A DNA stretch of 21,427 nucleotides from a virus. The notes under the pieces are model-generated. The model was given only the letters and a program-made list of their open reading frames with translations, was not told the DNA's origin and searched no databases. The position numbers and the translations under genes were made by a program. The stretch is from positions 1 through 21,427 of the IMG/VR virus record IMGVR_UViG_3300033148_005889. One strand, written 5' to 3'. This document shows positions 2,454 to 18,200 of the stretch, one piece after another (position 1 is the stretch's first letter; the number at the start of each line of letters is the position of its first letter).

Positions 2454-2482
2454 TTGACAAAGGTTCTTAAAAATTAGAAAAT
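2454..2482 (+). promoter_or_regulatory. Candidate sigma-70-type promoter for the late genes
   Basis: TTGACA at 2454-2459 is a perfect -35 hexamer. A 17-base spacer leads to GAAAAT at 2477-2482, a four-of-six match to TATAAT that keeps the key A2 and T6. A start about seven bases further on would fall near 2489, at the first base of the first hairpin of the structured leader. The good -35, correct spacing and position in the largest gap support it; the weak -10 does not. Confidence 0.4.
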
Positions 2483-2488
2483 AAAAGA

Positions 2489-2595
2489 GATAACGAAAGT
2501 TATTAGGCGGAAGATTACGATCCAGTGCCTGTGAGTTACGACTCCAAAACTTTTCAAGTCAATTTTTGGTTTGAAGAGTTTTGGAGTTTTTATTT
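2489..2595 (+). ncRNA. Candidate structured leader RNA (or small RNA) upstream of the terminase genes
   Basis: About 105 bases with locally higher G+C contain hairpins in close succession. H1: GATAAC (2489-2494) pairs with GTTATT (2499-2504) around a GAAA tetraloop. H2: AGGC (2505-2508) with GCCT (2527-2530) and GGA (2509-2511) with TCC (2521-2523), with a three-base bulge. H3: GAGT (2533-2536) with ACTC (2541-2544) around TACG. The loop of H2 and the apex of H3 both carry TTACGA (2515-2520, 2536-2541). H3 uses the first bases of the left arm of the terminator-like hairpin, so the two exclude each other. The region could be a cis-acting leader, a processed small RNA, or both. No known RNA family is recognised, and it does not fold as a tRNA. 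Confidence 0.5.
2541..2595 (+). terminator. Terminator-like hairpin just before the small terminase gene
   Basis: The left arm at 2541-2557 (ACTCCAAAACTTTTCAA) pairs with the right arm at 2571-2587 over 17 positions with a single G-U wobble and a 13-base loop. A TTTTATTT tract follows at 2588-2595. This is the form of an intrinsic terminator. It ends two bases before the ATG at 2598, so besides stopping transcription it would cover the ribosome landing site of that gene. It overlaps the competing hairpin H3 at 2541-2544. Confidence 0.68.
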
Positions 2596-2597
2596 AT

Positions 2598-2972
2598 ATG
2601 ATTGAAAAAAAACTTGATAAAACAAAAGAAAAACAAGAAAAGAAAAAAAAACCTCATCGCTTTAAAAAGGGGGAATCTGGCAATCCAAATGGAAGACCAA
2701 AAGGAACAATATCTATTACTACTGAAATAAAAAAGAAATTAGAGCAGATTCCTAAAGGTCAGAAAAAAACATATTTAGAACTTTATCTTAATTCTATTTT
2801 AAAAAAGGCAATTGTAGAGAATGACCAACAAATGATTAAAACGATATGGCAGTATATTGACGGGATGCCAAAACAGTCATTAGAACATTCAGGAGAAATT
2901 AGCTTACCTCAACCCTTATTAAAAAATGTTCATAGAAACAACAGCCCTAAACAAGATACTTCTATTGAATAA
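2598..2972 (+). CDS. terS: Small terminase subunit-like DNA-packaging protein (DUF5681-type motif), 124 aa
   Basis: I place the start at ATG 2598; an earlier in-frame TTG at 2571 lies inside the terminator-like hairpin and is unlikely. The 124-residue product has a very basic N-terminus (residues 4-24) leading into FKKGESGNPNGRPKG (residues 22-36). This matches the FxxGxSGNPxGRPKG motif of the DUF5681-type proteins found next to phage terminases, and its GRPKG core resembles an AT-hook. The rest is helical, with a disordered C-terminus. It overlaps the large terminase gene by 47 bases. Position and motif together point to DNA recognition during packaging. No Shine-Dalgarno sequence precedes the start. 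Confidence 0.78.
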   Translation: MIEKKLDKTKEKQEKKKKPHRFKKGESGNPNGRPKGTISITTEIKKKLEQIPKGQKKTYLELYLNSILKKAIVENDQQMIKTIWQYIDGMPKQSLEHSGEISLPQPLLKNVHRNNSPKQDTSIE

Positions 2973-4104
2973 GAGAATCCGCGCTATTCAGGGAGGAACT
3001 TCAGCTGGCAAAACAATAGGTATTTTGGAGGACTTGATAGATAGAGCCCAAAGAGATAAAAAACCCACCTTAACAAGCATTGTATCGGAAAGTATGCCTC
3101 ATCTTAAAAAGGGTTGTATAAGGGATTTTAAGAAAATCTTAAAAGAACATAATTATTGGAAAGATGATAGGTGGGGAGAAACAGACAAGGTTTATACTTT
3201 TGAAACTGGAAGCCAGATAGAGTTTTTTGGGGCAGACCAATCAGACAAACTAAGAGGAGGCAGGAGAGATAGATTGTTTATCAATGAAGCAAATAATGTT
3301 TCATTTCAGGCTTTTGAAGAATTAGAAGTAAGAACCAGAGAGTTTATTTACCTTGATTGGAATCCAGTATCAGAGTTTTGGTTTTACGATGAAGTAAAGG
3401 GAAAAAGAAATGATGTTGAGCATATTATATTAAATTATCTTGATAACGAAGCGATAGATGAGCAGACAAAAAAGTCAATAGAACAAAGGAAAGGAAGAAA
3501 GGGATGGTGGCAAGTTTATGGATTAGGCCAATTAGGAGAAGTAGAGGGCAAAATATATATTGAATGGCAAATTATAGATGAACTGCCCCACGAAGCTAAG
3601 CTTGAATGCCACGGCCTTGATTATGGATATTCTAACGACCCGACTGCCATTATTTCTATTTATTATAATAACGGAGGATATATTTGGGATGAGGTATGTT
3701 ATCAAAAAGGACTTTCAAATAAGCAAATAAGCGATATTTTAAAAAATCAATCTAATGCTCCTGTTGTTTCAGATTCAGCAGAACCAAAGTCAAATGACGA
3801 ATTGAAATTATACGGACACACGGTAATTCCTGCTGAAAAAGGTAAAGATTCTGTTTGTAATGGTATTCAATTAGTTCAAGCCCAGAGGATTTCAATAACT
3901 AAAAGGAGCATAAATATAATTAAGGAATATAGAAACTATCTTTGGGAAGTTGATAAAGACGGAAAAATCCTTAATGTTCCTGAAAAAAGATTTGACCATA
4001 GTATGGATGCTGGAAGATACGGAATGAGTTATTTATTAAAAGAAACAGAGATAATTTCTAATCAATTTAAAAGAAATCTACATCAAATAAATACTAATAA
4101 ATAA
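2926..4104 (+). CDS. terL: Terminase large subunit (packaging ATPase and nuclease), 392 aa
   Basis: This is the motor that pumps phage DNA into the procapsid and cuts it. The N-terminal ATPase shows a Walker A motif QGGTSAGKT (residues 22-30), a Walker B region DRLFINEAN (115-123) with Glu121 as the likely catalytic acid, and a coupling-type motif LDWNP (143-147). The C-terminal RNase H-like nuclease shows three acidic clusters: LDYGYSNDPTA with Asp232, SDSAEP with Asp283, and FDHSMDAGRY with Asp357/Asp361. The length of 392 residues is slightly short but complete for the PBSX-type/Terminase_6 group. The start at 2926 lies inside the small terminase gene, consistent with translational coupling. 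The short N-terminus before Walker A is usual for this group. Confidence 0.96.
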   Translation: MFIETTALNKILLLNKRIRAIQGGTSAGKTIGILEDLIDRAQRDKKPTLTSIVSESMPHLKKGCIRDFKKILKEHNYWKDDRWGETDKVYTFETGSQIEFFGADQSDKLRGGRRDRLFINEANNVSFQAFEELEVRTREFIYLDWNPVSEFWFYDEVKGKRNDVEHIILNYLDNEAIDEQTKKSIEQRKGRKGWWQVYGLGQLGEVEGKIYIEWQIIDELPHEAKLECHGLDYGYSNDPTAIISIYYNNGGYIWDEVCYQKGLSNKQISDILKNQSNAPVVSDSAEPKSNDELKLYGHTVIPAEKGKDSVCNGIQLVQAQRISITKRSINIIKEYRNYLWEVDKDGKILNVPEKRFDHSMDAGRYGMSYLLKETEIISNQFKRNLHQINTNK

Positions 4105-8369: not shown

Positions 8370-8379
8370 TAATTTAACT

Positions 8380-8458
8380 ATCCTCCCTTTTAGGGAGGAT
8401 GGAGAAAGTAAGAGTTCCCACCAATTCTTGCTTCCTCCATCCTCTCTGGAAGAAGGAT
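8380..8458 (+). promoter_or_regulatory. Four-segment attenuator-like RNA between capsid gene and next gene
   Basis: Four segments are alternately complementary. Segment 1 ATCCTCCC (8380-8387) pairs perfectly with part of segment 2, GGGAGGAT (8393-8400), over 8 bp with a 5-base loop. Segment 2, read as 8392-8413, also pairs with segment 3 at 8426-8447 over about 22 positions, with one mismatch and two G-U wobbles and a 12-base loop. Segment 3 (ATCCT, 8439-8443) can pair with segment 4 (AGGAT, 8454-8458), which overlaps the AAGG ribosome-binding site 10 bases before the ATG at 8467. 1:2 and 3:4 can coexist with the site masked; 2:3 would leave it free. There is no T-run, so this looks like translation control or RNA processing, not termination. 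Confidence 0.6.
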
Positions 8459-8466
8459 TAAATTAT

Positions 8467-9125: not shown

Positions 9126-9181
9126 AACCTCGCAATTTCTATATGTAGGCTTTCTGCGAGGTTGGCCTACATATAGAAATT
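9126..9181 (+). promoter_or_regulatory. Two interleaved, mutually exclusive inverted repeats
   Basis: Repeat A: AACCTCGCA (9126-9134) and TGCGAGGTT (9155-9163), a perfect 9-bp stem with a 20-base loop. Repeat B: AATTTCTATATGTAGGC (9134-9150) and GCCTACATATAGAAATT (9165-9181), a perfect 17-bp stem with a 14-base loop. The order A-B-A'-B' with no room for loops rules out a normal pseudoknot with both stems complete, so only one can form fully. B ends seven bases before the ATG at 9188 and would block that start; A would leave it open. No T-run follows, so it is not a typical terminator on this strand. Confidence 0.65.
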
Positions 9182-9187
9182 AAAAGT

Positions 9188-9352
9188 ATGGAAGAAAAAA
9201 CTGACGCAGAAATATCACAAGAGTTTTTAGAAGAATATAGAAAGCTCGTTAGAAAATATAAAAGGGATTTTATACAAGAACCTCCTAAGATAGTTAAGTT
9301 AGAATTTGTTGATTCTCCGAAAGAACCGCCTAAAGAACCAGCAATAAAATAA
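9188..9352 (+). CDS. Small charged hypothetical protein, 54 aa
   Basis: The frame starts at ATG 9188 and ends at TAA 9350-9352, one base before the next gene's ATG at 9354. The 54-residue product starts acidic and helical (MEEKTDAEISQEFLEEYRK), has a basic middle, and ends in a Pro-rich tail (SPKEPPKEPAIK). The tight fit between the inverted repeats and the next start supports it as real. A Pro-rich tail after a helix could be an interaction peptide, but the role is unknown. Its start lies directly after the 17-bp inverted repeat, so its translation may be controlled by it. Confidence 0.68.
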   Translation: MEEKTDAEISQEFLEEYRKLVRKYKRDFIQEPPKIVKLEFVDSPKEPPKEPAIK

Positions 9353-15244: not shown

Positions 15245-18200
15245 ATGGCATTACCTTCATTAAAATTTCCTAAAATAAAAAAAGAGCCAGCTGTATTTGG
15301 CTTAGTTCCAGTTAAAGAGCCGAGTGTTCCTTTTAGCGCAATAGAAACAGAAACAATAAAAGAGCCGACAGAACCTGTGATTACTCGTGTTGCTACTCAA
15401 TTCGGAGAAATACAGGCACCTGTTATAAAGTATCATCTTTTACAGATTCCAAAGGCCTTTTATACGGGAGTAAGAATGATCGCTGAAGGATTAGAGGCTG
15501 AAAGAGAAACAGGAATATTGGGATTTGGAGCGCCATTACCAAAAACAGAGTTTGAGAAAAAGGTAGGAGAAGGATTGAAAAACCTTATATTCCAGCCATT
15601 AGCAGAAAAAGCAACCGAGATTGTTGAAGGATTAGAGGAAAGGCAAAGAAAAGTAGTTGAATCTATCTTTGACGAAAAACCTGGTCTTTCAAATATAAAG
15701 GAATATCTTTTTACAATTGAATCAGGCGCAATATCTCTTTTAGAAGCAATTGGAATAACAGCAACTACTAAAAGTTCAAGTGCTGGAGCTTTCTTTTTAA
15801 CAGCAGTTGAATCGTCAGACGAATACAATCAAGCCAGAGATGCTGGATTATCTCCTAAAGAAGCAAGTAAAGTAGCAATAAAATCAGGGGCAGGAACTTT
15901 TCTATTAGAGAAAATAGGCCTTGATTATTATCTTGGAATGACTGGAGCTAATAGGGTTTGGGATGCTGTAAAGTTAGCTGGATTTGAAACTGGCCAGGAG
16001 AATCTTCAAACTGTCTGGCAGAATTATGTAAGAAGGGAAGGATATGCACCAGCTCAAAAACTAATGGAGGGATGGTGGGAAACTTCTGTTGCCACACTTT
16101 TACCTTCTTTTGTTGTTGGATTGGTGTTGCCTGGAGTTAAAGTTCAGACAGAAAGTGCCATGATAAAAAGAATGTCTCAAGATGCAGGAGTTAGTGAGGA
16201 GGTTGCCAGGGGTGCTATAGGAGAAATTAAGAATGTAATAGAGGGATTAAGAAGTCCCATTAGGCCTGGATTGACTATTGAGGAGGTAGGTATTCCCAAA
16301 GAACTTGAACCATTGGCAAAAGAAGCAAGGAAGTATAAGAGTGCAGAGGAGTTTGTTGGTAGTTTTAAGACTTCAGATGAAATAGCAAAATTAGGCAATG
16401 ATGTTCCCAAAGAATCCCAAAATTTTCTTTTTAAGTTAGAAACTAAATCAATAGATGATTTAATACAAACAGATTTTGTTCAACTTTATGAATGGAAGAC
16501 AGAGTATGGAAAAGATTTAATGAGAGCTATTAAAGAAAAAGAAAAATTACCACCAATAGTGATTAAAGAGGACGGAACAATATTAGATGGTAACCATCGC
16601 TTTGAAGCATATCGTAGAGCAGGTGTTAAAAATGTTCCAGTTGCAACAGAAATCAAACAAACCAAACAACAACTTACAGATATATTTAACCAAGCTATTA
16701 AAGAAATAAAACCAGAAGTTAAACCAGAAATAGAAATTAAAGAAAAAATAGAAGAAGCAGAAGCAAATATTTGGGTTGAGTTAGATGTTGCTGAAGCCGG
16801 TCAAAGATTAGCTATTCCTTCAGAAGAGATAGGTGTTGATTATGAGTTTTTGGCTCAAAGATCAACTTTTCCAGAATGGATACCAGAACATTTAAGAACA
16901 AAACCTCTTGTGGATAAGGTAATGGATTTTATAATGAGACAGGAAAAACCTGTTTCTGGAAAAGTCAGGGAACTTTATGATGTTGTTATTGGGCAAGTTA
17001 GCAAGAGAGCCGGTGTTTCAATAGAACAGATGAAAGAGTTGGGTTTTGATAAACCAACTGAAATTACTTCTAAGATAAAGAAAGAGCTTGAAAAAAGAGT
17101 AAGGGTTTTAATAAAAGAAGCGAAAGTGCCGGGAATCCCGGTCAAAAAAGTTGTTAGAGAAATAACTGGTGTGGCAAAACCAGTAGAAGTTAGAGAATTT
17201 AAACAAAGAATGACAGATTTAGTTAGAGGATTAAGGGAAGGAAGAATTACTACAAAAGCAGAAATAAAGGAAGTTCAAACAATTTTATTAGATGCATTGG
17301 ATAAGACAGAATTAACAGCTAACGACAAAAAGAAATTTAGTAGAGAAATCAAGAATGTTCAAACAAAAGAACAGCTTACAAAAGAGTTTCCTAAATTTCA
17401 AGAAAGAATAGAAAGACTTCTTGAAGCACAAGAAACAAGAACATTAAAATCCCAGATAGCAAGAGAATTAAAAGATATCAAGCCAAAAAAAGTAGCTGGA
17501 AAACCAGTAGGAAAGTTTACTCCAGAAGTTCAGAATGTTTTAGATTCTGCCAGAGAAGCAATAAAGCTTAATCAAAAACAATCTGATGATAAGCTTGTAG
17601 AAAATCTTAACTTGTATAAAGAGAAATCAATGCCATTAGAGATTGCTATTCAAAACAGAATTTTAACTATGAATTCTCAAGGGACTGAAGGACTAAAAGA
17701 TATATTGAGTATTATTAAAGAGATGAAAGATACCGGTAGGATAGCTAAATTACTTCAAGAATTCAATCTTCATGAAGAATGGGATAGAAAAAAGAATTAT
17801 CTTGTTGATATTGTTACTGATTATAAAGGAGTGGCTGAAGCAAGACAGACAACTGGTGTATCAGTAAAAGGGTTTAAGGAGAGATCTAAGCAATCATTAA
17901 AAACTTTAGGACAGAACTTTGTATTAAGCTGGAGGGGATTGATGGAGACCCTGGATTGGCATAGTCCGGTTGATCAAAAAACATTGGCAAACAGATATAG
18001 TGTTCTTGACCAAGAGAATAGATATAAGGAATTGCAGGAGGAATACACAGAAGACTTTAATAAGATGTTTGCTGATATATATAATATTCCGACAAAAACC
18101 AGAAAGGACAAAATATCATTGCCTTTTAAAGTTAATAGCCAGATTATAAATCTAACAGAAGAGGTAAATCTTGGAACTTTTACAAACACGATAGGCCAAA

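Follow-up and report, generated by a model that had tools for sequence, protein, structure and literature searches.

A promoter and a terminator-like hairpin ahead of terS suggest a read-through gate for the late genes of a phage contig and some of its relatives

Introduction

In the pR′-tR′/Q system of phage lambda, a late promoter is followed by a short leader and by an intrinsic terminator that stands before the late genes, so that read-through would activate them. The put RNA of phage HK022 exerts its effect via the zinc-binding domain in the beta′ subunit of RNA polymerase; it belongs to early rather than late promoters and works on distant terminators. The lambda N leader consists of a promoter, one or more small hairpins and a long hairpin that overlaps the region where its first gene starts; its RNase III hairpin, next to the start codon of N, sets a precedent for a processing hairpin. 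In the com-mom region of phage Mu, a small zinc-ribbon ORF precedes a gene with a folded start region. Lambda-type Q antitermination is defined by a Q-binding element together with a sigma-dependent promoter-proximal pause (PMC7171158), put is an RNA of about 70 nt with two long-stemmed stem-loops (PMC9378689), and Com prefers the sequence CC(N)2-3GAG (PMC6483171).

Here we analysed a 21.4-kb virus contig (IMG/VR record IMGVR_UViG_3300033148_005889; "the window" denotes the whole stretch of 21,427 nucleotides), the + strand of which carries essentially all real genes in the order small genes, the unit under study, terS, terL, a portal-type protein and the major head protein. The unit resembles the lambda late region in its promoter, short leader and terminator-like hairpin, and differs from it in that the hairpin abuts the first AUG, that the leader is just ~50–110 nt long and that no Q-family homologue was found, the Q position being taken in relatives by small zinc-ribbon or DUF2292-like genes. 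As in HK022, two adjacent stem-loops lie near the 5′ end of the leader, but they are shorter than those of put, match it neither in sequence nor by model, and are not conserved. The likeness to the lambda N leader is limited by the U-tract that follows the hairpin here and by the lack of boxA/boxB evidence. With com-mom the unit shares a small zinc-ribbon ORF upstream and a CC-N3-GAG sequence in the leader (2528–2535), although the latter is short enough to occur by chance at a noticeable rate and the similarity of the ORF to Com is not significant.

Results

Promoter and terminator-like hairpin upstream of terS

The initial annotation had proposed a promoter composed of TTGACA (2454–2459), a 17-nt spacer and GAAAAT (2477–2482), and all three elements were found on the + strand at these positions, with a predicted transcription start at 2489 as deduced from the −10 position. 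The −35 element is like those upstream of the corresponding units in the relatives L006, L031 and L002; the −10 element is weak (4/6), and an identical one with an upstream TG occurs in the portal unit of L319 (TTGACA-17-GAAAAT). By weighted score the promoter ranks seventh among all + strand positions, the six higher ones lying inside ORFs, and is the best-scoring + strand site outside ORFs, while promoter-like sites in the window show no excess over shuffled sequences (73 vs 75.5). Taken alone, this sequence evidence gives the promoter moderate support. An exact DnaA-box-like sequence, TTATCCACA, lies just upstream of the promoter (2443–2451) and again at 16909–16917, with a count of near-matches within chance; an origin of replication was rejected here, given one DnaA-box-like site at chance level and no change of skew.

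The most prominent element of the leader is a hairpin on the + strand at 2541–2587, 58 nt downstream of the −10 element and thus within ~150 nt of the promoter. It consists of 22 continuous pairs (19 Watson-Crick and 3 G.U) closed by a 3-nt loop, and had been recognized earlier with an incorrect count of 17 bp. The stem is long and AT-rich, with 6 G-C pairs, and is directly abutted by the U-tract TTTTATTT (2588–2595, + strand), whose last base, as previously stated, lies two bases before the terS ATG at 2598. The hairpin has a dG of −24.8 and a z-score of −7.0, was equalled by none of 500 shuffles, and is the strongest + strand terminator-like site in the 20 kb scanned. The 11 nt before the terS ATG include 9 T, a density found in only 4 of 581 genes of the phage and its relatives, two of these four being the window terS and its near-identical copy in the relative L100. 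With only ~10 nt between stem and ATG there is no space for another promoter, so transcription of terS must cross the hairpin. The first gene past the putative gate, terS (2598–2972, + strand), belongs to the DUF5681 family (PF18932, E 1e-12), and is followed by terL (2926–4104, + strand), which encodes the large terminase subunit.

Further elements were noted around the stem. A Shine-Dalgarno-like GGAG lies in the 3′ arm (2583–2586, + strand); its role is doubtful since such sites are seldom used in this genome (4 of 23 starts). A weak GAGU-UACG-ACUC mini-hairpin (2533–2544, + strand; −2.1 kcal/mol) might form in competition with the lowest part of the terminator stem. The leader also holds an ORF (2525–2605) that stays open through the hairpin, which was dismissed as a real gene because its openness is not distinguishable from chance.

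Close relatives and upstream genes

Two contigs are very close to the window. L081 represents the same phage (99.97% identity), and L100 is a close relative with 99.6% identity upstream and 94.9% over the leader and terS. The L100 leader differs from that of the window only at two neighbouring bases of the hairpin's 3′ arm, both of which retain stem pairing through G.U exchange; these changes, together with the fact that all three non-Watson-Crick positions of the window hairpin are G.U, fit pairing of the + strand RNA. Farther downstream in L100 (3201–4068), a short tandem duplication cuts the terS ORF to 69 aa, and a 150-aa ORF that by eye looks HNH-type endonuclease-like lies between terS and terL.

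The promoter is adjoined upstream by a 58-aa ORF (2170–2346, + strand) with a zinc-ribbon-like CxxC...CPxxxC pattern, which is only weakly Com-like (PHROG Com, E 0.053) and has no significant Pfam match, the Com family included. Between this ORF and the promoter, L100 carries an intact 124-aa gene (2694–3068) with a weak match to a late sigma factor family (PHROG 234, E 0.036), of which the window keeps a deletion remnant at 2358–2438 that contains the 3′ end of the gene (2370–2438, + strand). Other zinc-ribbon-like ORFs were found upstream in L036 and L031, and small upstream genes occur in relatives with the portal-type unit, that of L319 passing the Pfam cut-off for DUF2292. A zinc-ribbon gene as a constant partner was rejected, as just 9 of 60 relatives have one ahead of terL.

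Leader hairpins H1 and H2

The two small hairpins that the initial annotation had pointed out, H1 (2489–2504, + strand; 6 bp with a GAAA loop) and H2 (2505–2530, + strand; 5+3 bp with an internal loop), are present in the leader. Jointly they fold better than shuffled sequences (z −2.6, p 0.014); H2 alone is not significant (24 of 200 shuffles as good), and H1 surpasses its own shuffles yet reaches just −3 kcal/mol. The region 2505–2545 has a GC content of 54%, against 25% for bases 1–2484, and is unmatched by any 41-nt segment in 1–2500.

Searches for these hairpins elsewhere gave little. For the leader, no Rfam family scored above the gathering threshold, and the exact H2 pattern was absent from the viral contigs, where 52 gapped-pattern matches were discarded as unrelated sequence lacking the flanking hairpins. 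A covariance model of H1/H2, run over the loci of relatives, matched only the near-identical L100, at which the conservation of both hairpins ends, and the H1/H2 model R1 had no match in HK022 24,000–40,700 (16.7 kb including the early region). Against the earlier idea of a new leader RNA with cis-acting H1 and H2 stand their weak folds, their sharing with L100 alone and leaders that differ freely between relatives. A conserved put-like leader RNA is therefore not supported by these sequence comparisons, and H1 and H2 are probably incidental or phage-specific.

An HK022-like arrangement, in which H1 and H2 would bind the elongating polymerase so that it ignores the terminator, was considered on the grounds that the predicted RNA begins with two neighbouring stem-loops and that the leader is a GC-rich island amid AT-rich DNA. 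Yet the pair spans 42 nt where put has about 70 nt and longer stems (PMC9378689), both stems are weak, the model is unmatched in the HK022 region and in relatives beyond L100, and a constitutive antiterminator RNA would leave the neighbouring terminator without purpose. Judged by sequence, size and conservation, such a reading fails, and we regard it as very improbable.

Recurrence of the promoter-hairpin layout among relatives

Relatives of terL with 28–76% identity were gathered from viral contigs and genomes, and a complete unit was defined as a promoter followed by a hairpin with U-tract and an AUG, the promoter threshold and hairpin rules being simple ones of our own. Within the 372 kb that surround terL in 105 relatives, the coding strand carried 18 complete units and the opposite strand 1. 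The criteria had been developed on these same data, and 24 previously unseen loci were therefore fetched as a check; they yielded 3 units against 0, and two of these units clearly stand at the portal junction. Some single units may have been misassigned, and the evidence lies in the contrast between strands. The putative promoter-proximal terminator ahead of late genes that had been suspected in the window thus recurs as a layout in some two dozen related phages, in most of which it stands before the portal gene and after the terminase genes; many relatives have no such unit. Searches of open-licence papers turned up no account of this layout.

A terminator before terS is not a family-wide trait, since a strict hairpin-plus-T criterion showed no enrichment there (1 of 83 relatives vs 11 of 486), and all late junctions were examined for this reason. 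In an energy-based test against shuffles, a hairpin and U-tract abutting the AUG occurred at 17 of 102 portal-like genes (0.2 expected), 2 of 73 terS genes (0.2 expected) and none of 95 terL genes. Of the 17 portal-like matches, that of the window falls within an ORF and two others fall within terL; these three appear spurious, which leaves about 14. A scan with the portal protein found no relative. A promoter score of at least 10 was reached upstream of 7 of 14 of these portal hairpins, whereas among control genes the figure was 30 of 709 (p 1e-6). The units of L271 and L274 have strong promoters, and strong sigma-70-type sequences precede the portal hairpins of L271 (TTGACA-16-TGTTATAAT), L305 (TTGACA-17-TATGGT) and L319 (TTGACA-17-GAAAAT). 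The stems in relatives are mostly ordinary GC-rich terminator stems with the U-tract directly after. The order of these parts at the start of the packaging/portal module is accordingly recurrent and non-random.

Units near terS were also found in close relatives of the window. By eye and script, L036 has TTGCTT-16-TATAAA, two hairpins, a U-tract and an ATG directly before terS; L031 has TTGACA-17-TAAAAT, a 63-aa leader ORF, a hairpin, a U-tract and the terS ATG; and in L006, TTGACA-17-TAAGAT, a hairpin and a U-tract lead to the ATG of a 29-aa ORF preceding terS. In L008, TTGACA-17-TACACT and a hairpin lead up to the ATG of a small ORF that is separated from terS by two gene positions, and in L002 the promoter TTGACA-17-TAAAAT is followed by a 55-aa ORF that contains a terminator-like hairpin. 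The leaders of these five relatives are mutually unrelated in sequence, and L005 shows no unit upstream of terS.

Another arrangement was seen in 15 of 83 relatives (L017, L018, L253, L287, L292, L296, L297, L304, L306, L307, L308, L318, L326, L039 and L279), in which TATAAT, often with an extended TGn, lies 8–18 nt before terS (17 of 485 control genes; p 6e-6). From its sequence, this pattern looks like that of a leaderless terS mRNA.

Several portal leaders have features of their own. Those of L007 (2081–2192), L010, L016, L256, L259 and L265 share a segment like CCCTWACYCAAACAAAGRGCGGG that leads into the terminator stem, the upper stems varying yet remaining paired. The portal leaders of L018, L279 and L034 begin soon after a TATAAT promoter and have a small GAGTTGCGGACAATTCT-type hairpin, lacking a U-tract, just before the portal ATG.

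Other hairpins in the window

A long conserved hairpin lies directly 3′ of the major head protein gene (8370–8462), with a CCCACC-type apical loop and alternative CTCCC/GGGAG pairings. Its counterparts were located in L031 (10753–10856), L002 (6989–7093), L046 (5462–5568), L005 (10602–10708), L036 (10555–10640), L006, L063 and L097. Of its 24 predicted pairs, compared over 9 relatives, 14 show at least one pair-keeping change on both sides, and no Rfam match was obtained for this hairpin. A further long intergenic hairpin (9134–9181; 20 of 22 pairs), without a U-tract, ends 6 nt before the ATG at 9188.

Discussion

We propose that this segment provides the late transcription unit with its promoter and 5′ leader. 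The bacterial sigma-70-type promoter (2454–2482) would start an RNA near 2489; about 50 nt on, the 22-bp hairpin and U-tract (2541–2595) would form an intrinsic terminator, the tail of which doubles as the spacer of the terS start codon, and most transcripts would stop before the first late gene until polymerase is let through. The succession of promoter, terminator and first late AUG is as expected for a gate opened by read-through. It speaks against a pure insulator, which one would look for on the upstream side of the promoter. Judging from the sequence, we consider it somewhat better than an even chance that a promoter-proximal intrinsic terminator gates late transcription here in a manner like lambda pR′-tR′. 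We infer an active promoter and a hairpin that stops polymerase, and likewise that passage through it is controlled, by a factor from the phage itself. We do not assign the unit to the Q or put systems. The Q families PF03589 and PF06530 had no match in the 21.4-kb record, possibly a fragment, PF06323 had none either but its model was silent in controls too, and −10-like hexamers are too common in the window to count as a pause element.

The hairpin might instead be a leaky terminator within an operon and free of dedicated control, so that a fixed fractional cut of late transcription, arriving both by upstream read-through and from the promoter at 2454, sets gene dosage. That would suit the one clear + strand terminator-like site, its location between the upstream block and terS with the same strand throughout, the hairpin-U-AUG elements before a few other late genes, and leaders that as a whole lack conserved regulatory sequence. 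However, a promoter placed tens of nt upstream, as in a large share of units, would be wasteful for a fixed attenuator, and the placement at the first gene of the packaging/portal module suggests timing; we hold this explanation to be possible, if rather unlikely.

It is distinctly unlikely, in our view, that the hairpin serves RNA processing or translation, as an RNase III-type cleavage site or by hiding the terS ribosome-binding site, with the T-rich spacer being secondary. Pointing that way are the stem, which at 22 bp is long for a terminator, the GGAG within its 3′ arm and two more long intergenic hairpins of the window that lack a U-tract (8387–8452 and 9134–9181). The sparse use of Shine-Dalgarno sequences, on the other hand, makes their hiding a weak lever and weakens it as the main function; moreover, relatives mostly have ordinary terminator stems with direct U-tracts, and a T-tract is rare ahead of other genes. 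A chance or purely structural DNA feature, such as an end, packaging or replication site, could be imagined from the DnaA-box-like sequence near the promoter and from the fact that cos sites often lie near terS. The G.U nature of all non-pairing positions in the + strand RNA and the RNA pairing retained in L100 speak against it, as do the unchanged GC-skew and the chance-level occurrence of that box (twice), making it extremely improbable.

Several observations weigh against the read-through gate: the weak −10 element and the lack of an excess of promoter-like sites, the missing enrichment at terS under the strict criterion, the many relatives without a unit, some of which have TATAAT before terS instead, and the lack of a Q-family homologue in this record. 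The binning of L081 and L100 with DPANN archaeal MAGs also counts against it, because an archaeal host would make a sigma-70 promoter meaningless. On the other side, the leader units and the TATAAT before terS fit a bacterial host with sigma-70-type promoters and argue against taking the binning at face value. The MAGs of L081, L100 and L244 are labelled Aenigmatarchaeota, Pacearchaeota and another genome of the phylum of the Pacearchaeota MAG. The archaeal binning of these three contigs is probably mis-binning.

As to what might open such a gate, position points to the gene that immediately precedes the promoter as a lead for the regulator. More broadly, a large uncultivated tailed-phage lineage could keep its late module under a promoter-proximal terminator fused to the first start codon. 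The gate would then be opened by small antitermination or RNA-binding proteins of new families, whose genes directly adjoin the late promoter on its upstream side; the window, L036 and L031 would use their zinc ribbons for this, L319 its DUF2292-like protein, and other portal-type relatives comparable small proteins. We regard this wider proposal as tentative and unlikely.

How phages time their late genes has been worked out in few groups, chiefly the lambdoid and T4/T7-like ones. Since the unit is short, a reporter and purified polymerase would suffice to study it, without culturing phage or host. If the gate is real, late control by read-through would extend well beyond the lambdoid phages, and the small upstream genes would become candidate regulators in relatives that come from many metagenomes.
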